Source: a virus. From it: DNA of 21,870 bases. The stretch covers positions 1 through 21,870 of IMG/VR virus record IMGVR_UViG_3300017756_000137; one strand, 5' to 3'. Below are positions 3,217 to 20,650 of this stretch, piece after piece. The translations under genes were made by a program, and so were the position numbers. Below the pieces are notes generated by a model, which did no database searches, was not told where the DNA came from, and saw only the letters and a list, made by a program, of their open reading frames with translations. Numbering within the stretch: position 1 is the stretch's first letter; the number at the start of each line of letters is the position of its first letter.

Positions 3217-3993
3217 ATGGCTGCGCCTCAACCTAAACCTAGAAAAGTTTCCCATATCACTTCTATTCTTTTAAGACCAGCACTCACATCTCATTTCCTG
3301 GTTCATTTTGCTCTTCCTGATTTTGTTCCAAAATCAAATGCAGTAGCGCAGGATCAAGTCTATCTTGAGTGTTGTGATGCATCTCTACCAGGATCAAGTC
3401 TTGCTACGTTTGATATTAATAATGATTTTCACGGTGTAACAGAAAGACGTGCATATCGTCGTATGTTTGATGATCGTATAGATTTAACATTCTATGTTGA
3501 TGCAAAAAATTATTCGCCTATTAGATTATTTGAAGATTGGATTGGTGGCATCATGAATGGAAATAATGATGAAGATTTACTAGAGAAATCAAATCATTAT
3601 TACACAGCAAAATATCCAACAGAATATAGGAGACCATTATCGATTGTAAAATTTGAGAGAGATTATAACTCGCAACTAATATACAATTTTGTTGATGCTT
3701 ATCCAATCAATATTGGATCTATGCCAGTTTCATATGAGGGATCTAGTTTATTGAAATGCACTGTAGGATTTACTTATCTTCGATATTATATTGAAAAAGC
3801 AAAAGCGGAAGAATCACAAGAACAACCTACAGTTAATCCTGAAGTAAATTCTTTACTTGATAATCTCCCACCACCACCACCGCCACCATTACCACCACTA
3901 CCACCTCCACCACCACCTCCAAAACCGTTTGATATTCGGGATAGAGACATTCGTGCTCGAGCTAATTTTGATGGGCGATTCGATCCGATTTGA
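3217..3993 (+). CDS. gp54: Baseplate tail-tube initiator (gp54-like, tail-tube fold), proline-rich C-terminus
   Basis: A 258-residue protein with the gp19/gp54 tube fold. A first beta strand (SHFLVHFALPDFV) leads to YLECCDASLPGSSLATFDIN, the loop-strand that marks tube proteins. It continues with RMFDDRIDLTFYVDAKNYSP, then LFEDWIGGIMNG, and finally a YEGSSLLKCTVGFTYLRYYI strand. T4 gp54 has equivalent elements, including a DWxxxV-type helix and a YDGDNQ...FDVTFAYR strand. I prefer gp54 over the major tube protein gp19 because gp48 is close by and the gene lies in the hub cluster. Residues 218-237 form two runs of seven prolines separated by LPPL, followed by a basic/acidic tail (DIRDRDIRARANFDGRFDPI); T4 gp54 has no such tail. 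The start lies right after the divergent promoter region with no clear ribosome binding site. Confidence 0.7.
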   Translation: MAAPQPKPRKVSHITSILLRPALTSHFLVHFALPDFVPKSNAVAQDQVYLECCDASLPGSSLATFDINNDFHGVTERRAYRRMFDDRIDLTFYVDAKNYSPIRLFEDWIGGIMNGNNDEDLLEKSNHYYTAKYPTEYRRPLSIVKFERDYNSQLIYNFVDAYPINIGSMPVSYEGSSLLKCTVGFTYLRYYIEKAKAEESQEQPTVNPEVNSLLDNLPPPPPPPLPPLPPPPPPPKPFDIRDRDIRARANFDGRFDPI

Positions 3994-4032: not shown

Positions 4033-4752
4033 ATGCCATTACCAAAGATTGCTGCGCCAACATATGAACTTGAGTTGCCATCAACTGGAGAATTAATTCA
4101 ATTCAGACCTTTTTTAGTTAAGGAAGAGAAACTCCTTGTGATTGCAATGGAGAGTGAAGATACTAAACAGATCACCAATGCTCTCAAATCTGTGATCAAG
4201 AATTGTATTTTGACGAAGGGAATTAAAATCGAAACTCTTCCAACATTTGATATTGAGTATTTGTTTTTAAATATTCGAGGCAAGTCTGTAGGAGAAGAAC
4301 TGGATGTCAATATTATTTGTCCAGATGATGGAAAGACTGAGGTTTCTGTATTGATTAATTTGGAAGATATTGAAGTTCAAAAGAACGATGAACATGAGAA
4401 AAAAATTAAGATCGATGATTCTATCATGATTGAAATGAAGTATCCTTCTTTGGATCAGTTTATTAAGAATAACTTTGATTTTAATAAGAGAAATGCAATG
4501 GATCAATCATTTGAACTGATTGCATCCTGCATCGGTACAATTTTTACCGAAGAAGAAGCTTGGTCAACCGCAGATTGTAGTAAGAAGGAAGTTACTGAGT
4601 TTTTAGAGTCGATGAATTCCTCTCAGTTTAAAGGTATTGAGAAGTTCTTTGAGACTATGCCAAAACTTTCACATAAAGTTAGTGTAAAAAACCCAAAGAC
4701 AAAGGTTGAGAGTGAGGTCGTACTTGAGGGTTTGGCGTCTTTTTTCGCCTAG
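4033..4752 (+). CDS. gp26: Baseplate hub assembly protein gp26 (T4_baseplate family)
   Basis: A 239-residue acidic protein, somewhat longer than T4 gp26 (about 208). gp26 is needed for hub assembly and is thought to act as an assembly factor. The N-terminus MPLPKIAAPTYELELPSTGE, then IQFRPFLVKEEKLLVIAMES, is the family hallmark (a strand pair leading to a PFxVKEEKxLLxA helix). Further along are YLFLNIRGKSVGEELDVNIICPDDG, an IxLEDIEVQ strand, and MKYPSLDQFIKNNF. The C-terminal half is helical, with FLESMNSSQFKGIEKFFETMP, and the protein ends LEGLASFFA. The last codons hold a T TTT TTC heptamer (4740-4746) that could shift ribosomes into the -1 frame, which stays open into the next ORF. An unshifted ribosome stops at TAG 4750-4752. 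Confidence 0.82.
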   Translation: MPLPKIAAPTYELELPSTGELIQFRPFLVKEEKLLVIAMESEDTKQITNALKSVIKNCILTKGIKIETLPTFDIEYLFLNIRGKSVGEELDVNIICPDDGKTEVSVLINLEDIEVQKNDEHEKKIKIDDSIMIEMKYPSLDQFIKNNFDFNKRNAMDQSFELIASCIGTIFTEEEAWSTADCSKKEVTEFLESMNSSQFKGIEKFFETMPKLSHKVSVKNPKTKVESEVVLEGLASFFA

Positions 4753-4770
4753 GCATGATCCATATGGATC
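4740..4770 (+). promoter_or_regulatory. Candidate programmed -1 ribosomal frameshift site with downstream hairpin
   Basis: In the gp26 frame the codons are tct-ttt-ttc-gcc-TAG, so 4740-4746 is T TTT TTC, a perfect X XXY YYZ heptamer. Shifting -1 gives ttt-ttt-cgc-cta-ggc-atg and enters the ORF at 4755 with no stop. Ten bases after the heptamer, GATCCATATGGATC (4757-4770) is a perfect palindrome. As RNA it can form a 5-bp GAUCC/GGAUC stem with an AUAU loop, a plausible stimulator. The predicted fusion is 300 residues. Confidence 0.6.
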
Positions 4771-4934
4771 TGGAGAGTTATTATAAACTTAATTTTGCGT
4801 TGATGCAGTACCATAAATACTCACTAACTGAGATTGAGAATTTAATTCCTTGGGAACGTGATGTTTATGTTGCATTATTACAAAATCACCTTGAAGAAGA
4901 GAAACTAAAACAACAGCAAGCTAATGGATCTTGA
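4755..4934 (+). CDS. Small ORF read alone or as -1 frameshift extension of gp26 (tail assembly chaperone GT-like)
   Basis: This gene encodes 59 residues beginning MIHMDLESYYKLNFALMQYH and continuing HKYSLTEIENLIPWERDVYV, then ALLQNHLEEEKLKQQQANGS. A short helix pair, a PWERDVYVALL motif and a charged Glu/Lys/Gln-rich end are visible; the PWER-Y pattern recurs, as I remember it, in small proteins encoded between gp26 and the large tail genes of T4-like cyanophages. The ATG lies two bases after the gp26 stop, and another methionine is at 4764. Neither has a Shine-Dalgarno, so expression by coupling or by -1 frameshifting from gp26 is likely. The ORF overlaps the next gene by 11 bases. It may play the part of T4 gp51, but it is much shorter than T4 gp51, so I give no symbol. 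Confidence 0.7.
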   Translation: MIHMDLESYYKLNFALMQYHKYSLTEIENLIPWERDVYVALLQNHLEEEKLKQQQANGS

Positions 4935-7209
4935 TTCACTCCTGAAATCGATAAGAGAAGAGAATAAAGGAGGTGCTATAGTTCCTGCTAAGTTTTTTGG
5001 TGAGGATCGACACTCAAAGTATCTTGATGAGTTCTTGAAAGACACCACTATTGGGGGTGAGTATCTGACAAACGAAGAGAAGAAAGAAGGATATAAAAAA
5101 AGAAATAATAAGATTGATTTTGAGGCTTTTGTAAATAAGGTTTTAAAGACTCGTGATGAAATAAAGGAACAGGGACAAGAGCAAGACACTTCCGATTCAA
5201 GTTCATCATCCTTGCCTGAATCTAAAGGAAGTGCAATAGTAAAAAGAGATTCTGTAAATATTGAAAAGTTTAAACCAACTGAACAAACACAAGAAAATTT
5301 TGACGATATTCAGAGGGGCATCGATTCAATCTTGGAATCATTGAGAGAAGAAAATGCTCTCGCTAAGGATAAATCTGATGCAGATAGATTAAAAGAGGAG
5401 GAGAGGAAAAGAAAGGCTCAGGAAACTAATCTAGAAAAACCTTTCGAAAAACTTGGTGGGATTGTAGGTGCGGTATTAAAACCTGTCAAGAGTCTGTGGG
5501 AAAAGATTTGGAATTTTATTTGGAATATTTTCTTGGGTCGAACTGTGGTCAAATTATTCGAGTGGTTTAGTAAAGAGGAAAATAAGAAATCATTAGAAGC
5601 GATTGGAGTATTTCTAAAGAATACTTGGCCTGCTATTCTTGCTGCGTTCTTAGTTTTTGGTACAGGATTGGGTGGATTTATAAAAGGAATAGTTGGATTG
5701 ACAACAAGATTTATACCAAAAATAGTTAAGATGATAGCTAAGTTAGCTAAATCTGCTGTAAAGTTTGCAATATCAAATCCACTGGCAGCCCTAGCTATAG
5801 CCGGAGGTGTAGCTACTGTCGCAGGTCTCGCTCAACAGGCAACTTCAAAATCAAATGACGAAGAAAGAGCAAAAGAAGGAAAAACTCAACTAGATGATAC
5901 GCAAGAATTTGGTGGAATTTCTGGAGATCCAATGGGTGGTTTGTTCTCTGGTGGTGGCGGAGTTCCAGGAACAGGAGATAAAGATACTGTACCTGCAATG
6001 TTGACTCCTGGTGAATTTGTTATGAGTAAAGGTGCTGTACAGAAGTATGGTATGGACACTTTGGAGTCTATGAATGCTATGGGTGGTGGAACAAACCTTC
6101 CTGAAAGAATGGATGGCATAACATATGCTGCTGGTGGTGGAATGATTGGTGGTGGAATGGCTGATGGTGGAATGACTGGTGGTGGAGATGAGGAGAAAAA
6201 AGAAAAAATGCCACCAGGTCATGATTCCTTAATGAAACAGAGGGATGATGAAGAAGAACCTAATTTTAATTCAGATACTGCTGAGAGTAGGTTATCTGAT
6301 TTGATGAAGACAACAGATCCTAAGAAAATTTCTGATTATGACAGCAAACATGGGGAGGGTGCATATCAAGCAGAATTAAAACAAAAATTAGAAAGAATTT
6401 ACAACGATGATAGTACATTTGGACTTCCTCCAGGTGCTCCTGGTCTGCCTGGTGGTGGCGGCGGCACAAACGCTCTAACTGAACAGGCAAAAGTAAGATC
6501 ACCTCTTCAAATGCTCCTTGATCCAACTGGTATTAAATCTGAAAGAAAACATTTTAATGATCCGCAAAGTTATCTCACTGATGAAGAATTTGAGAATAGG
6601 GGAGAATTTCCCCGCGATATAAAAACCACGGGTCCACTTTTGGGTAGATTGGTAATGGGCATGGGGGATGGATCATGGGGACTTCCTCCAGGTGTTCCTG
6701 GTCTGGGTGGCGGTGGCGGCGGCACAAATGTTCTGACGGAACAGGCAAAAGTTAGATCTATTCCTGGTATGCTTGGTGATTTATTCAGCATCTTTAGGAA
6801 AAAGGAGATTGATCCGCAGACTATTCTTGGGGATGTAGAATCTAGGGCAAAGAATATGGCAACATCCATGGGTGGAACTGTTGTTGATAGTAACAGTCAT
6901 GAAGAAAATATGAAAAGGGTTATGTCTTTACCTCCTGAAATGAGAGAGGCTGTTCTTGCGGACATGAAGAGAACAGAATCCAATCAAATAAACATTAAAA
7001 ATACTCCAATAGCATCGTCTCAAACAAAGTTAAAAACTCCACCTCCTCCACAAAGATCTAGACCATCAGTGACTTCTATTCCTTCTATGGGATCTAATAA
7101 TAGTTCTGGTGGAGGTGAATCGGAACCTTCTGGTATTGATAATAGTAGACCCTCCCACACTGTTCCTAGGGGTCGGGATAAAGCCAAAACACTTGGTGTT
7201 TTAATTTAG
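4924..7209 (+). CDS. Putative tail tape-measure-like protein 1 (Gly-rich, hydrophobic core)
   Basis: A 761-residue protein with tape-measure features. Residues 1-170 are polar and partly coiled-coil (IDSILESLREENALAKDKSD, then DRLKEEERKRKAQE). Residues about 177-306 are strongly hydrophobic and amphipathic (WEKIWNFIWNIFLG, TWPAILAAFLVFGTGLGGFI, NPLAALAIAGGVATVAGLAQ), as in tape-measure proteins that later form a membrane channel. At 359-376, MLTPGEFVMSKGAVQKYG followed by MNAMGGG is a motif common in large phage tail proteins. The rest is Gly/Met/Pro-rich with two copies of a GLPPGxPGL-G-rich block (from residues 500 and 586). Position supports the call: it follows the gp26 frameshift pair as lambda H follows G/GT. 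T4 gp29 (590 aa) would be the counterpart, but I see no clear sequence likeness. It could instead be an internal hub or fiber-associated protein. Confidence 0.6.
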   Translation: MDLDSLLKSIREENKGGAIVPAKFFGEDRHSKYLDEFLKDTTIGGEYLTNEEKKEGYKKRNNKIDFEAFVNKVLKTRDEIKEQGQEQDTSDSSSSSLPESKGSAIVKRDSVNIEKFKPTEQTQENFDDIQRGIDSILESLREENALAKDKSDADRLKEEERKRKAQETNLEKPFEKLGGIVGAVLKPVKSLWEKIWNFIWNIFLGRTVVKLFEWFSKEENKKSLEAIGVFLKNTWPAILAAFLVFGTGLGGFIKGIVGLTTRFIPKIVKMIAKLAKSAVKFAISNPLAALAIAGGVATVAGLAQQATSKSNDEERAKEGKTQLDDTQEFGGISGDPMGGLFSGGGGVPGTGDKDTVPAMLTPGEFVMSKGAVQKYGMDTLESMNAMGGGTNLPERMDGITYAAGGGMIGGGMADGGMTGGGDEEKKEKMPPGHDSLMKQRDDEEEPNFNSDTAESRLSDLMKTTDPKKISDYDSKHGEGAYQAELKQKLERIYNDDSTFGLPPGAPGLPGGGGGTNALTEQAKVRSPLQMLLDPTGIKSERKHFNDPQSYLTDEEFENRGEFPRDIKTTGPLLGRLVMGMGDGSWGLPPGVPGLGGGGGGTNVLTEQAKVRSIPGMLGDLFSIFRKKEIDPQTILGDVESRAKNMATSMGGTVVDSNSHEENMKRVMSLPPEMREAVLADMKRTESNQINIKNTPIASSQTKLKTPPPPQRSRPSVTSIPSMGSNNSSGGGESEPSGIDNSRPSHTVPRGRDKAKTLGVLI
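6421..6760 (+). repeat. Internal direct repeat, Gly/Pro-rich block in tape-measure-like protein 1
   Basis: Two units, 6421-6502 and 6679-6760, encode GLPPGAPGLPGGGGGTNALT and GLPPGVPGLGGGGGGTNVLT, each followed by EQAKVRS. The DNA copies are nearly identical (ggacttcctccaggtg-t/c-tcctggtctg shared), so the duplication is fairly recent or kept alike by recombination. The spacer between them differs. Confidence 0.85.
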
Positions 7210-13267: not shown

Positions 13268-16200
13268 ATGAAAGATAAAAAAAATAAAGCAAAATTTAAT
13301 ATCTTTCAGAAGTCTAGTGATATTGATTCTGAAACCAAGAAGTCAAATATCCGCGTTGGATATATTGACAAGAAGTTGGGGTACGTAAAGAATGTATCAA
13401 TAAAAGAAGCGAAACAAGTTGCCAAGGATGATCCTGGTAAAACTTTTATTCTTGAGAATCGAGATGGTGTAAGATATTTAAATATAAATGAGGTAATTGA
13501 TCTTAAATTTAAAGATGTATTGCCAAAGAAATCTGCAAAATCAAAAGATTGTAATCCTGTAGAGGGTCTAAAGGAAGAAAATAAAGATTACTCTAAAAAG
13601 AGTCCCAGACTAGAATTTTTTGGTGGTGGTGGAGTTGGGATTCAAGCTAATCCTGTCATGAGCGAGGATGGAAGACAATTACTTTCCGTTGATCTTGTTG
13701 AGGGTGGATTTGGATTTCAGTACCCACCTTTTGCAAAGTTTGTTGATGATAGAGGATTTTCTACTCAAGGAGTGTTGGAAACGAATCTCTGTGGCGTACA
13801 AGAGACTGAAATAACATATAGAGAGAAGGATCAATTTGAAGATTATGATATTGTAGAGGAAGAGGGTAGTGATGCTATTGGATTTGGTAGGAGGTATGAT
13901 GCTGATGGGAGAGATATTGGTGAATGGGATCCAACAACATATAAAAATCTAGGTGAGGATCCTATTCAGAGGCAAATTGACCAATATCTGGATGCTCTCA
14001 ATAGGGTCCAATATCCTTGGTGGAATAGTAGAGGTTACAGTCCCCTAGAAGTTATTGGACAAGACGAGACAACTCGAATAAAATATGATGTTCAGCACCC
14101 TACATGGGGAGCAAAAAAAGATGATGGGTATGTTGATATTGAATTTGAAGTCTATGGTCAAGGATCTGATAAAAATAGAGATATAAGATTTAGATTTGTT
14201 GAAGTTGATGATAATGATGAAGTGGTTGTTGACGGTCATACATTTACCATTAAGGGAATAACGCACCAAGACAGGAGTGACAAAACAAGAAAATCTATTA
14301 AGAGAATAAAGCGTAAAACAACTTATAAGGTTATATCGGAATCTAGAGGAAATTCTCAATACAAAAAAGATCTTATATTAGAACAAGGATTGTTAAAAAA
14401 AAGTTCATTTGGCCAAACTGGAGAAGAAAAAAAACTTTTAAGGATTCAAGAAGGTGATAATTATGCGCAGGGATCTACTATTTTTGCAGACGTAATGGGA
14501 TCGACCAATGATAATGATGATGTGCAATTGACTTGTCCTAGAGGAAAGTTTACTGCCAAGAATAAAAGTAGAATTGAAGCAAAAGTTAATAAGAAAATAC
14601 CTAATCCAAATATAGAACAATCCACACAATCTATATACGAAATTTCATATACTCCTCCGGGTACAAATGGAAGGGGTCCAAATGCGTCAAACTACTTACA
14701 AAATTCTAAAAAAATTGTTTTCTTAGATTCTAGTGGAGATGATAAAGACGATAATAGCATTGAGATTAAGAATATTGCTGGAGATATTAAAGTAAAGTTT
14801 TCTGATGATATGTCACATATCATCGCAACTGGTCATGGTAAGGGATCTTTTGATGTCGTTGCAAAATGGGATGACAATCCAAGTCCATCTAGCAATGGGG
14901 AAGCTATGAGTCTTGTTGTTATTGACGGAATACAATTTGATCAGAACAGTAGAGAAGGTAGAAAAACTAAAACATTTAAAGTAAGTCTTCGCGATAAAAA
15001 TACTTTACCTAAAAAGGTAAAGTCGGATCAACTTAAAGATGTTGGTAGGGGTACTTTTGATCTCTTCTATCGGTTAAGTGAGAGAGTTCCGGATCCTACA
15101 AAGATTAGAGATTCTTTTATGAATCGGTATGCTATTTCTCCAGTTCCGGATTCGGGTGAGGATGGAACTGATTTTGCTGGAATTCCGTACAATTTTATAT
15201 GGGAAGAAAATTTTCCGTTTAGTGGGGATTATATCTTCAGGGGATCTTCTGATGGAGAATCTTATTTAGCTATAGACGGGGAACAATTGTTTGAAATGTC
15301 TGAACCTAACGATTCCCCCAAAAAATATAAGAAGTATATTGAATCCGGAGTTCATCAAATTCATGTAAGTTTGGAGAATGGACTTAAATATGAAAAAGAA
15401 GTTACGAAGGTTATTAGAAAAGATATAGAACAGGATGCAAATACTGGTTCTGATTACAAGGTAATTTATAATGATCTTAATAAAAAGATCATGATCAAGG
15501 TCTCCTCTAATGCACAAAAGGTTATGCTCTTGGATCCGGATGGTATTGAGGTTGCAAGACTTGATATTGACTCGACAAAAAATGGTCGAATGAAATTTTC
15601 TGAAGATGGAAAGAAACTAATCTTGGTCGGAAAGTCTAACAAACAAGTGGATGGAACAATTACATTTACTTGGGATGATAGTCGATCAATTAATAAATCT
15701 AAATCTCTTAGTAGTATTAAGATTAAAGATACTTTATGGGACAAATCTTTTTCGGAGAAGGTAATTCCAAAATTTATTTCTGAAAATTTTGATCTTTATA
15801 TGCATGGTTATAAAGACAAAAAGTTAGAGGGACGAAATGTTGCATTTAAATTTGAGGAAGTAAATGGAAATCACAAATTTGTAATTGATGCTGAGGATTA
15901 TTTTGATGTTGGTGATTCGGATGATGGACTGTACAATAGAAATAACTCTATAGAAGTAAAACCAAATACAAATTATATTGTCACAATATTTGGTCCCGGT
16001 GATCATGAAACTGGTTTAGTTCAATCCTTTGGTAGAGAGCCTGATGAACTTAATCCTGAAAAGAAAAATGGGTCTAAAGTTACTGGAAATATTATTTTTA
16101 GGGATAGAAAAAATAGTGATAACGATAATGACGATTTTCAAGTTAGATTTCGGAATGGAGTAGTTACTTCAACTAGAATTTCAGGAACTGGAAGCAGAAA

Positions 16201-19200
16201 TAGTTTTAGCATGGTTTATCGATATAATCTTTCTAAAGATAATGATAATATAACAGGGACAAATGTAAAAACAATTTCTCTGATTGATAAAAACTATGCA
16301 CAAAAAAGAGAATCTCAATATGAAATTGTTAAGGTTGAGAAAGGAACTAAAGTTGAGGGCCAGGTTAGAAATATTTTTGATACAGTAAAGTATATTGACA
16401 AAGCAAATAGAAAATTGTGGAGAATTCCTCCAAGATCTGGAAAGAAGGATGCATTTTTAAATAGCCATGGAATAGTTCCATTTAAACCAAAACTAGAATT
16501 AAAATCAAAATCTGCAGATGTTAAATTTACTGAGGAAATTCCCGATATTAAAGCTTTCTTCGATAGAGATGGTGATAACCTTTATCTTAAGGTAACCGGT
16601 GATGGCACCGCTACTATTAATTTTTTACTGGATGTTGACGACAATCAATTTGATGATGATGGTCTCTTCGCAAAAGAAATTACTATTAAGACTGATGATA
16701 CTGATTTAAAATTAACAAGATCATCAATCCAGAGATATACTGGTCTCCCTCCTGATGGTCGTTACGGGAGAACAAGACGGTCAGTTTCTAGAATACAGGA
16801 AAAAGAAAAAATAAGAGGTTCGGGCACTTTCACTGGCGGAAAGACTTATAGTATTAAAGTGATTGGTGGTAATCCAAAAACTGGTTTCAAACCAATTGAC
16901 AAAACTACAGTTGGTTTCGATGATGACATTACAAACGGATATAATGAAAATGGATTGCTTAATATTACCAGTATTAATCCAAAACCAATAAAGGTTCCTG
17001 TCGAAGTAAAAATCAAAGAATCTACTATTAATGATGCCGAAATTGATTCTTCATCTGCAGAAGAAATTATTGCTTGGAAACATGTAGAGTTTCCTGTTAC
17101 TGGAGATTATCAGATTGATGTCGCAGCTGCCGATGCTGTTAACTTGTATATTGGTAATAGTATAACTGATGGAGATAGGAGATCTAGAAATGGATTGTCT
17201 GATGTTCGTGATGGTGGAGACGAGGTCATAATCAATAAAGATGGTTTTAATTCCTCAGGAAACTCTGCGGGAATGACTCCTTACGTAAGAAGATTTGAAA
17301 AGGGATTTTATCGTATTCGAGCTGAGTTAATTCAATCTTCAAATAAATCCAATTCTAAAAAAAATCCAATGGGATTGGCAGTAAAAATAAAAATTATAAA
17401 TCCTCAGGAGAGAGTTATTTCCGATGCCTCTTGGCAAGAGAATCCAATGGGATTCGCGGTAACTATTGATGCTCCAGATCCACCAATTCCATCAGAAACC
17501 AAACCAGTACAAAAAGGCAGGTGTCAGGATAATCCACTTTGGACAACTAGATTTCCTGGTGCTGAAGAACAGTGGTATCCGGTATACGATTTCAAGAACC
17601 CTAGTCGGTGGTCTAAATTTATGAATAGATTTGCTTTATCACCATTCCCTCCTTTATCGGATAAGAACACTGATAATGGTGGAGATCTTAGATCCAATAC
17701 TTGGATGTTCGAAGCATCTGAAACTGGATACTATGGTCTCAAAGGTTCTGCCGATAATATTGGTAGAATTGTAATTACTGATAATGAGACCAACAAATTA
17801 AAATCTATAGCAGAAACTCCAAATTACGAGCGGCAAGCCGGAGATCCTTTTTATATGGATTTACCGGAAGAAGGTGTTGGTGTATTGTATAGTCATAAGG
17901 ATAAAAATCCAAAAACTCACATATTCAAACTAGAAAAAGGAAAATATAAAATTCATGTTGATGTTGAGAACTACGTTGGGACCATTAAAGAAAAAATTGA
18001 AAAAGTAATTTTTAATACTGCTGATTGGGTATCTGAACCAAAGAAAATTGATTTTGCAAATGTCAACTTTGAGAAATTTGGTCAAGGATCCAATAAAAAT
18101 ATGGAAATTAAATTCATTTTCCAGGAATTAGGTGTCAAGAATGGTCATACATTTACGATTAAAAATGTTGAAAAGAGTGGTGATATTGAAAAATTTAATA
18201 AGAAGGTTAAGATCAATACAGACTATAAGGTTACTGCCGTTGCTACGAGAAAAGTTAATCAACAACCAAAAATAAAACAATCAAAACCAAAAACTTCTTT
18301 TGAGATTCCTATTACATATAATCTTGACAATCCCAGAAACTTTGGATTTAAGGTACTTAACGGTGGGAAAGCAATTGGTTTTGATGATAATGCAACTCGC
18401 CTTACAAATTTTGGTAGAAATACTACTCTAAGAGAAATAGAAGATTTTGATGTAAATGCAACTTTAAAAATTGAATCGACATCGCCTGGTGTAAAAGCAA
18501 AGTTTTCTGATGACGGTAAAAAAATTATTGTAAGTGGATCTTCTGGTGGAGACTTGTCTGTCAAATTTGAATGGGACGATAATCCGAATACTTCAGGTAA
18601 AGTATTTAAAACCATTGACATTGGTGGAACTATCTTCAGACAGAACGGTGAACGTGGAAAAGAAACCAAAAAAATAAAATTTGGGTCTGATAAAGGATCT
18701 TCTAGTGCAACAGAACAAAATCAATCCACATACTCAATTTCATATACTCCCCCAGGTACAAAGGGAAGGGGTCCAAATGCATCAAACTACTTAGAAAATC
18801 CTACAAAAATTGTCTTCTTGGATTCCCCTAGGGATGATAATGATGATAATAGTATTGAGATTAAGAATGTTAAGGGAGACATTGGTGCAACGTTTTCTGA
18901 TGATATGTCTCATATTATTGTAACTGGTCATGGTAAGGGATCTTTTGATGTCGTTGCAGAATGGGATGATAATCCAAGTTCATCTAGCAATGGGGAGGCT
19001 ATGAGTCTCGTTGTTATTAATGGAGTAGAATTTGATCAGAATAGTAGAGAAGGTAGAAAAACTGAAACATTTAAGGTAAATCTTCCCGATAAATTTGACC
19101 CGATAAAGTATAATGCTTTGGAACAAGGCGTTCTCAGAAAAGGTTTCGGAAAAACTGGAGGTAAAAGATCTAAAGATGGTGCGAAAGAAGGTGGATCATC

Positions 19201-20650
19201 ACCAGGGAAGGTTATATTTGCTGATTATGTCAGTTCATCAAATGATGATAACGATATGCAAATACGAGCAGAGAAGGGTCGGTTTACTCCATCTAACCGT
19301 CGAGGATCAATTCAAACTTCTCCCGGACAATTTACTGGAAGAGGAACCTGGGATCTAACATACAGATTAGAAGTTTCAAAAAGTGAAGTGGTGGATAAGA
19401 TCACTGAACTTGAGGGATATGAGGGTGTGATTTATGATGGACCCAAACTAGCGACATATCAAACTGGAAAACTTGGACCTTTCTTATCTCCATACTTTAA
19501 GGATGGTGTTGATACTATTACTGGTGCCAATACTTGGACCATGATTTGGAAAGATGTTGACTTCCCCATAGACGGTAGGTATACGTTGAAAGCGGAGGCA
19601 GATCATATACTCATGGTCAAGATTGGAGGAAAAGAAATTGAAAAAATTAAATCAGATCAGAATGTTGTTACAGTAAAGTTTACCGCACCAAAGGGGAAGA
19701 ATGATATCGAACTTAAGTTAAAGAATAAAAGTAAAACAGGGGTACCATTTAAGGAAAATCCTGTATTAGCCGCTGTACAAATATCAGGAAAAATTCCCAC
19801 TGATACTGGATCTACTATGTCTTGGAGACAGAATCCTGTAGGAATTTCTGCAATTCTTATTCCTCCACCATGCAAAAAAGTTATGAAAGGCACTGGGGTT
19901 GTATGTAATGTAAAAATTATGGATCCTCCGATAATTAGCATTGGCAATACGTTAACTCAACCACCACGAGAAATACCAGAAGAATCAGGAACTCCTCCAC
20001 CAGAAGCACCAATACTTACATCAACATCAACAGGAATATCAACAGTACCAATAGGACCACCGCCGATAGAAATTCCAGAAATACCCATTTATCCTGTAAT
20101 ACTTGAACTGGATAGGGTCGAAATTGGAACCCCCGGAATTGGATACACTCCCGGAGATCCTATGATTTTGATTCCGGGAGACGGAACTCCAAATATTCCT
20201 TTAGATGTAGAACTCACAACTTCAACTAGTGGAGGCGTAACTAGTATTAAACTCAACCAAAAACCATTTGGTATGACTTCTTACCCCAAAATTACAATTG
20301 CATCTCCTGAAGGTCTCAATTTCCAAGGAACTCCTATTCTTAGAGTAGTTAGAGATCCTATTGTTCAGGATACAAGTAAGTTAATTCAGGTTACTGATCT
20401 GGTTGGTCTCAAGAAAACTGGATACTATGCTGGCAGACCATATTATGGTTCTGTATTCTATAAAGATGGAGTCAAATATGCTGGTTGGTATGAAACTCCT
20501 GGGGATCTTGTTCAAATTTATGATACATTGCAAGAAAGTATTGATGCACAAGTTACAACTAGACCTTCTGCTATCATACGTCAGGGTAGCGATATTCGTA
20601 GCAATGATTCCAGACTTAATATACCGGGAACTCCGGACAATCTGATCTAA
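13268..20650 (+). CDS. Giant modular virion protein, 2460 aa (repeated beta-sandwich and PA14-like modules)
   Basis: This gene is a third of the window. The N-terminal part has LEFFGGGGVGIQANPVMSED and VEGGFGFQYPPFAKF, seen at the start of large structural proteins of cyanophages (some annotated VrlC-like). The middle is built from repeated modules. Type A (WDDNP ... GEAMSLVV) occurs strongly at residues 452-577 and 1820-1942 and weakly at about 727-835, 1075-1155 and 1678-1804. Type C (GQGSxKNxxIxF ... GHTFTIK) is at about 288-360, 838-907 and 1598-1662. Type B (IFADxxxSxNDxxDxQ) is at about 369-440, 934-990 and 1947-2037. PA14-like sandwiches (FPxxGxYxxxxxxD ... IxG) are at about 613-712, 1264-1378, 1446-1572 and 2068-2165. 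Paired NPxGxAV motifs follow two of these. A Pro/Thr-rich linker (about 2221-2278) leads to a C-terminal domain with KTGYYAGRPYYGSVFYKDGV. PA14-like folds bind carbohydrate, so a host-surface role is possible but inferred. No signal peptide or transmembrane segment is seen. Confidence 0.75.
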   Translation: MKDKKNKAKFNIFQKSSDIDSETKKSNIRVGYIDKKLGYVKNVSIKEAKQVAKDDPGKTFILENRDGVRYLNINEVIDLKFKDVLPKKSAKSKDCNPVEGLKEENKDYSKKSPRLEFFGGGGVGIQANPVMSEDGRQLLSVDLVEGGFGFQYPPFAKFVDDRGFSTQGVLETNLCGVQETEITYREKDQFEDYDIVEEEGSDAIGFGRRYDADGRDIGEWDPTTYKNLGEDPIQRQIDQYLDALNRVQYPWWNSRGYSPLEVIGQDETTRIKYDVQHPTWGAKKDDGYVDIEFEVYGQGSDKNRDIRFRFVEVDDNDEVVVDGHTFTIKGITHQDRSDKTRKSIKRIKRKTTYKVISESRGNSQYKKDLILEQGLLKKSSFGQTGEEKKLLRIQEGDNYAQGSTIFADVMGSTNDNDDVQLTCPRGKFTAKNKSRIEAKVNKKIPNPNIEQSTQSIYEISYTPPGTNGRGPNASNYLQNSKKIVFLDSSGDDKDDNSIEIKNIAGDIKVKFSDDMSHIIATGHGKGSFDVVAKWDDNPSPSSNGEAMSLVVIDGIQFDQNSREGRKTKTFKVSLRDKNTLPKKVKSDQLKDVGRGTFDLFYRLSERVPDPTKIRDSFMNRYAISPVPDSGEDGTDFAGIPYNFIWEENFPFSGDYIFRGSSDGESYLAIDGEQLFEMSEPNDSPKKYKKYIESGVHQIHVSLENGLKYEKEVTKVIRKDIEQDANTGSDYKVIYNDLNKKIMIKVSSNAQKVMLLDPDGIEVARLDIDSTKNGRMKFSEDGKKLILVGKSNKQVDGTITFTWDDSRSINKSKSLSSIKIKDTLWDKSFSEKVIPKFISENFDLYMHGYKDKKLEGRNVAFKFEEVNGNHKFVIDAEDYFDVGDSDDGLYNRNNSIEVKPNTNYIVTIFGPGDHETGLVQSFGREPDELNPEKKNGSKVTGNIIFRDRKNSDNDNDDFQVRFRNGVVTSTRISGTGSRNSFSMVYRYNLSKDNDNITGTNVKTISLIDKNYAQKRESQYEIVKVEKGTKVEGQVRNIFDTVKYIDKANRKLWRIPPRSGKKDAFLNSHGIVPFKPKLELKSKSADVKFTEEIPDIKAFFDRDGDNLYLKVTGDGTATINFLLDVDDNQFDDDGLFAKEITIKTDDTDLKLTRSSIQRYTGLPPDGRYGRTRRSVSRIQEKEKIRGSGTFTGGKTYSIKVIGGNPKTGFKPIDKTTVGFDDDITNGYNENGLLNITSINPKPIKVPVEVKIKESTINDAEIDSSSAEEIIAWKHVEFPVTGDYQIDVAAADAVNLYIGNSITDGDRRSRNGLSDVRDGGDEVIINKDGFNSSGNSAGMTPYVRRFEKGFYRIRAELIQSSNKSNSKKNPMGLAVKIKIINPQERVISDASWQENPMGFAVTIDAPDPPIPSETKPVQKGRCQDNPLWTTRFPGAEEQWYPVYDFKNPSRWSKFMNRFALSPFPPLSDKNTDNGGDLRSNTWMFEASETGYYGLKGSADNIGRIVITDNETNKLKSIAETPNYERQAGDPFYMDLPEEGVGVLYSHKDKNPKTHIFKLEKGKYKIHVDVENYVGTIKEKIEKVIFNTADWVSEPKKIDFANVNFEKFGQGSNKNMEIKFIFQELGVKNGHTFTIKNVEKSGDIEKFNKKVKINTDYKVTAVATRKVNQQPKIKQSKPKTSFEIPITYNLDNPRNFGFKVLNGGKAIGFDDNATRLTNFGRNTTLREIEDFDVNATLKIESTSPGVKAKFSDDGKKIIVSGSSGGDLSVKFEWDDNPNTSGKVFKTIDIGGTIFRQNGERGKETKKIKFGSDKGSSSATEQNQSTYSISYTPPGTKGRGPNASNYLENPTKIVFLDSPRDDNDDNSIEIKNVKGDIGATFSDDMSHIIVTGHGKGSFDVVAEWDDNPSSSSNGEAMSLVVINGVEFDQNSREGRKTETFKVNLPDKFDPIKYNALEQGVLRKGFGKTGGKRSKDGAKEGGSSPGKVIFADYVSSSNDDNDMQIRAEKGRFTPSNRRGSIQTSPGQFTGRGTWDLTYRLEVSKSEVVDKITELEGYEGVIYDGPKLATYQTGKLGPFLSPYFKDGVDTITGANTWTMIWKDVDFPIDGRYTLKAEADHILMVKIGGKEIEKIKSDQNVVTVKFTAPKGKNDIELKLKNKSKTGVPFKENPVLAAVQISGKIPTDTGSTMSWRQNPVGISAILIPPPCKKVMKGTGVVCNVKIMDPPIISIGNTLTQPPREIPEESGTPPPEAPILTSTSTGISTVPIGPPPIEIPEIPIYPVILELDRVEIGTPGIGYTPGDPMILIPGDGTPNIPLDVELTTSTSGGVTSIKLNQKPFGMTSYPKITIASPEGLNFQGTPILRVVRDPIVQDTSKLIQVTDLVGLKKTGYYAGRPYYGSVFYKDGVKYAGWYETPGDLVQIYDTLQESIDAQVTTRPSAIIRQGSDIRSNDSRLNIPGTPDNLI
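14621..15000 (+). repeat. Repeat module A, copy 1 (near-identical to 18725-19093)
   Basis: Encodes ISYTPPGTNGRGPNASNYLQ ... VKFSDDMSHIIATGHGKGSF ... VVAKWDDNPSPSSNGEAMSL and ends FDQNSREGRKTKTFKVSLRD. By hand alignment it is about four fifths identical to the second copy in protein. The 3' half is closer still in DNA, for example ggtcatggtaagggatcttt is shared exactly. Confidence 0.9.
18725..19093 (+). repeat. Repeat module A, copy 2
   Basis: Encodes ISYTPPGTKGRGPNASNYLE ... TFSDDMSHIIVTGHGKGSFD ... VVAEWDDNPSSSSNGEAMSL. It pairs with the copy at 14621-15000, about 4.1 kb upstream in the same gene. A more divergent relative (FSDDGKKIIVSGSSGGDLSV ... FEWDDNP) lies directly before it at about 18298-18680. 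Confidence 0.9.

Follow-up and report, generated by a model that had tools for sequence, protein, structure and literature searches.

The tail assembly chaperones gpG and gpGT of phage lambda were reportedly described by Xu, Hendrix and Duda in 2004, and the slippery heptamer of lambda is GGGAAAG. In the review of Atkins et al. 2016 (PMC5009743) the G-T frameshift is given as widely conserved "except T4", and T4 gp26 and gp51 are listed elsewhere as hub assembly chaperones (PMC3004832). In the 2010 literature gp51 was reported as missing in Aeh1, and Sullivan et al. 2010 (PMC3037559) described cyanophage gp51 as reaching only ~ 20% of its normal length. The first-pass annotation of the DNA studied here knew of no report of frameshifting at T4 genes 26 and 51, but later papers point to Vladimirov, Gautam and Davidson 2022 (Virology 566:9-15). 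According to these citing papers, that study identified tail assembly chaperone genes of T4-like phages (PMC10885494, PMC12846349), some T4-like phages have a short gene plus a long, fused one in place of frameshifting (PRFect, PMC10885494) and poly-T slippery sequences occur in TAC-N genes of T4-like phages (PMC12846349). Given these two citations, the core finding is taken here as very probably published already; as far as the citing papers convey it, this covers the T4-like chaperones, the poly-T slippery sites and the separate-gene solution of T4.

We analysed a stretch of viral DNA of 21,870 nucleotides, referred to as the window, in which the features of the locus are as follows.

4033..4752, + strand: gp26 homologue, short form (TAC-N, lambda G-like), 239 aa (PF12322, phrog_150, AlphaFold2 model)
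4726..4730, + strand: SD-like GAGGG, likely upstream stimulator, the GAGG ending 10 nt before the heptamer (codon bias and anti-SD pairing)
4740..4746, + strand: slippery heptamer T_TTT_TTC (phased T6 in 259/262 gp26 loci; 0/97 control Phe-Phe pairs)
4750..4752, + strand: zero-frame stop TAG, end of the short form (sequence; stop spacing in relatives)
4753..4934, + strand: putative -1 extension (T-like; "gp51 hub assembly catalyst" in relatives) (phrog_634, phrog_150, open frame)
4757..4770, + strand: palindrome GATCCATATGGATC, 5-bp stem and AUAU loop, likely downstream stimulator, 10 nt after the heptamer (covariation in the window's clade)
4924..7209, + strand: next gene, 761 aa, tape-measure candidate (mainly position; phrog_35029; weak tape-measure PHROG matches)

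Compared with lambda gpG/gpGT and the other chaperones of long-tailed phages reviewed in PMC5009743, the heptamer of the window is poly-T and the short form is larger, at 239 aa; no sequence relation of the window gp26 to lambda gpG/gpGT was found here. The T4-like gp26/gp51 chaperones, as later papers cite them from Vladimirov et al. 2022, belong to the same protein family as those of the window, but T4 has two separate genes on opposite strands with no slippery site whereas the window has one gene with putative frameshifting. In the TAC frameshift of Vandenendeviridae and Andersonviridae (PMC12846349), a poly-T slippery sequence and an open -1 frame are found at the TAC-N end as in the window, but the motif is GTTTTT and the phage families differ from that of the window.

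The last codons of gp26 in the window are TCT TTT TTC GCC TAG, with T_TTT_TTC in phase with the gene as the first-pass annotation had seen. The -1 reading, FFRLGMIHMDLESYY..., is stop-free through 4931 and ends at the TGA of 4932-4934, hence the open frame noticed earlier into the ORF at 4755 is real and gives a fusion of 236+64 = 300 residues, with the sequence ...SFFRLGMIHMDLESYYKLNF... around the slip. The small ORF itself covers 4755-4934 (59 codons) and makes up, slip codons included, the C-terminal 64 residues of this fusion. Both parts belong by sequence to the T4 gp26/gp51 family (PF12322, phrog_150, phrog_634). Indeed, the window gp26 matches PF12322 T4_baseplate with E=7e-75 and phrog_150 with E=7e-79, while the extension matches phrog_634 with E=4.5e-28 and also covers positions 241-281 of phrog_150. 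No second gp26-family gene was found in the window's record, a 21,870-base fragment.

As a single site the heptamer is unremarkable. TTTTTTC occurs 13 times in the window for 17 expected by chance, showing no enrichment, and the genes of the window hold 42 in-phase A/T heptamers, so a significance drawn from the window alone was rejected; it is the conservation of the heptamer across relatives that makes the observation significant. Relatives of gp26 were drawn from IMG/VR and from annotated phage records, and their phages include cyanophages and Vibrio, Aeromonas, rhizobial, Caulobacter, Stenotrophomonas, Delftia and Desulfovibrio phages. Of the 262 readable loci, 259 carry the phased T6 heptamer at the gp26 3' end, whereas T4 and the Vibrio phages K369 and TDDLMA do not; the phased heptamer is retained down to ~ 27% protein identity. 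Where it lies near the stop (213 unique loci), the heptamer is TTTTTTC in 200, TTTTTTT in 12 and TTTTTTG in one, and the zero-frame stop lies 3 nt downstream of it in 193. Six of the 259 (L188, L214, L233, L234, L236 and L248) have the heptamer and the open -1 frame with a zero-frame stop farther downstream; their zero-frame gp26 extends ~ 8 codons past the heptamer, and both frames are therefore coding over a longer overlap.

As a control, Phe-Phe pairs elsewhere were counted in 91 representative gp26 genes, any two of which share <80% nucleotide identity. Of these 97 pairs, none is written T TTT TTC and two are written T TTT TTT, hence the heptamer is explained neither by codon usage nor by constraint on the amino acids. 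Together, the anatomy of the site and its conservation confirm the frameshift signal that had been noticed at the end of gp26, and its retention by relatives, proposed as a check at that time, is borne out.

The T4 exception was compared with the window in sequence and in predicted structure. In T4, genes 26 and 51 are encoded on opposite strands; T4-type phages have no heptamer, although most retain the Phe-Phe pair (...GLKEFF...), coded GAG TTC TTT GAG. The first 201 residues of T4 gp51 match PF12322, phrog_150 is matched over 13-280 of 282, and the C-terminal part matches phrog_634; moreover, a profile of the -1 peptides matches the C-terminus of T4-type gp51. In predicted models (pLDDT 88.8 for the window gp26, by AlphaFold2, and 84.8 for a T4-type gp51) the two proteins have the same predicted order of elements, with C-terminal helices added in gp51. 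Gp51 is therefore the long form as one gene: in T4, gp26 is the short form and gp51 the long form, encoded separately without frameshift. Since gp51 consists of a gp26-like domain and a small-ORF domain, as a G/GT pair predicts, its composition supports the G/GT reading of the window. The earlier description of 26 and 51 as separate genes thus stands, with the correction that the pair is a frameshift-free version of the chaperones.

In TDDLMA (L096, VB_VaC_TDDLMA, 1281-2623) a short gene (1281-1931) is followed in tandem by a long one of gp26 plus extension (1934-2623), with no slippery site. In the tree, T4 gp26 groups with gp51 (83/85) and the TDDLMA short form with the long (99/95), the latter with a long-branch warning. 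These groupings suggest, with moderate support, two independent duplications, one in the T4 lineage and one in TDDLMA.

The -1 frame is stop-free in all 213 unique slip loci, with 58-75 codons wherever the locus is untruncated, hence no stop separates the two parts, a finding that would have spoken against the fusion had it been otherwise. We considered whether the small ORF could instead be a gene of its own, gp51, which ribosomes would reach through stop-restart coupling at the TAG/ATG, with the heptamer incidental. Databases do annotate it as a separate gene, its ATG at 4755 sits 2 nt past the gp26 stop with a second ATG at 4764, and in many loci, among them the window, reinitiation could occur at an in-frame ATG. 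However, before the conserved core (located by motif, or by a substituted fixed position for 27 loci) the -1 frame lacks ATG in 79 of the 213 unique loci, and ATG, GTG and TTG are all absent in 56, where the small ORF is therefore hardly translatable except as an extension of gp26. An example of the latter is L051, on a 258-kb contig. For the ATG at 4755 no usable Shine-Dalgarno was found, the sole purine run, TAGG, ending 1 nt before it; the absence of a ribosome site noted in the first reading is thus upheld in the window, and elsewhere the question of a strong site often falls away for want of a start codon. Furthermore, coupling would leave unexplained a heptamer kept in nearly all loci while other Phe-Phe pairs are coded otherwise, and T4 makes the fused form as one protein. 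That the small ORF is such a separate gene is, in our view, very improbable. Vibrio phage K369 (L085, 2345 to about 3260) may nevertheless use stop-restart, as it has kept the small ORF and lost the heptamer: its gp26 ends CTT TTC AAG TAATG, with no T6 heptamer, and an unannotated gp51-type small ORF overlaps the gp26 stop by TAATG. In the Aeromonas phages L099 (3206-3372) and L090 (3218-3383), the -1 extension carries no annotation and falls in the gap that separates gp26 from the gene after it.

Both sides of the heptamer were examined for elements that could stimulate a -1 slip. Upstream, GAGG or AAGG is found 10 nt before the heptamer in most representatives, a spacing that resembles that of the dnaX stimulator. 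The Glu codon at this place is GAG:GAA 51:25, against 702:1455 for the rest of these genes (p=1.7e-9), the next Gly codon is enriched in GGA/GGG (p=1e-5), and synonymous shuffles pair less strongly with the anti-SD than the real sequences do (-5.7 against -6.8 kcal/mol, p=2e-5), all three p-values being uncorrected for shared ancestry. The codon choice thus makes the SD-like GAGGG a likely upstream stimulator.

Downstream, the 14-base palindrome GATCCATATGGATC is present 10 bases after the heptamer as first described. In the window's clade 86% of cells are paired and all 5 pairs have double-sided changes; the doubly changed cells number 21 versus 5.7 in shuffles, none of 500 shuffles reaching 21 (shared ancestry again uncorrected), and slid controls are far below 21. 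At the same columns the hairpin was not detected in other clades, and no consensus structure was predicted by RNAalifold for either of the two clades. A general hairpin across all clades was rejected on these grounds, and the hairpin is therefore weak and clade-specific at best; within the window's clade the palindrome is a likely downstream stimulator. These elements also bear on the idea that the fusion arises from slippage of the polymerase on the T6/T7 run, rather than of the ribosome, to yield a fusion mRNA. The site is indeed a homopolymer of 6-7 T on which one added base would lead to the same frame, but the run is short, the codon phase (T_TTT_TTY) is strict, and an SD-like element with a covarying hairpin fits a ribosomal mechanism. 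Transcriptional slippage thus appears extremely unlikely.

The predicted fold of gp26 was compared with solved structures. In a Foldseek search of the PDB the gp26 model matches HK97 gp13 with probabilities of 0.75 and 0.63, YqbN with 0.57 and Rbstp2171 with 0.28, all of which are called tail assembly chaperones (PMC9603447), and the other probabilities among the matches listed are <=0.16. Given that the E-values of the chaperone matches are about 1 or above, the match is suggestive only: the predicted fold appears to single out solved tail assembly chaperones, though weakly. For the T4-type gp51 model, the listed PDB fold matches include no chaperone, and the gp26 profile found no relevant match among PDB sequences.

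The heptamer kept by relatives, the -1 frame free of stops, the loci without start codons and the composition of T4 gp51 all bear out the earlier proposal that gp26 and the small ORF are a T4-like G/GT. We consider it very likely that the locus is one transcription unit from which a short and a long version of a tail assembly chaperone are made via a -1 frameshift. Frameshifting in vivo, its efficiency, the roles of the stimulators and the chaperone function are what we infer in the following scheme. Most ribosomes would read gp26 to the TAG at 4750, giving the short form of 239 residues. The remaining minority, delayed by the upstream SD-like GAGGG and, in the window's clade, by the small downstream hairpin, would slip at 4740-4746 as the P- and A-site tRNAs re-pair from TTT TTC to TTT TTT in the -1 frame, and would then read 62 more codons to give the long form of 300 residues. 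If lambda G/GT is a guide, the tape measure protein would be coated by many short and few long forms, with the extension recruiting tail tube subunits.

The gene that follows starts at 4924 and overlaps the small ORF by 11 nt. It matches phrog_35029 (unknown function); its matches to tape-measure PHROGs are weak and confined to short Gly-rich stretches, and no match came from BLAST when the large genes downstream were compared with T4 gp29, with the tape measure of Cr30 and with the Vibrio V05 counterpart. A large gene does adjoin as was claimed at first; as a tape measure it is a weakly supported candidate, proposed mainly for its position. Elsewhere in the window, a 2460-residue ORF at 13268-20650 with long near-identical internal repeats (YxISYTPPGTxGRGPNASNYL...) is probably a tail or adhesin protein, and a poly-proline tract (PPPPPPPLPPLPPPPPPPK, 3868-3930) lies near the C-terminus of a tail-tube-like protein at 3217-3993.

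With regard to the history of the family, the chances seem to us evenly divided that the frameshift is ancestral in T4-like phages and was lost at least twice by duplication. The ancestral signal would have been composite, with an SD-like GAGGR 10 nt upstream, T_TTT_TTY and a clade-specific hairpin, and the losses would each have left a short gene and a long fused gene, divergent in the T4 lineage and tandem in TDDLMA; the stop-start overlap in K369-like phages may be a third. Such phages are natural experiments in which gene duplication stands in place of frameshifting. The findings also correct a standing annotation, in that hundreds of cyanophage "gp51 hub assembly catalysts", along with many unannotated copies, are read here as frameshifted gp26 tails; contrary to the 2010 reading (PMC3037559), cyanophage gp51 are not short genes minus 200 residues. 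T4 gp26 and gp51 are thereby tied to the general chaperone scheme of long-tailed phages.
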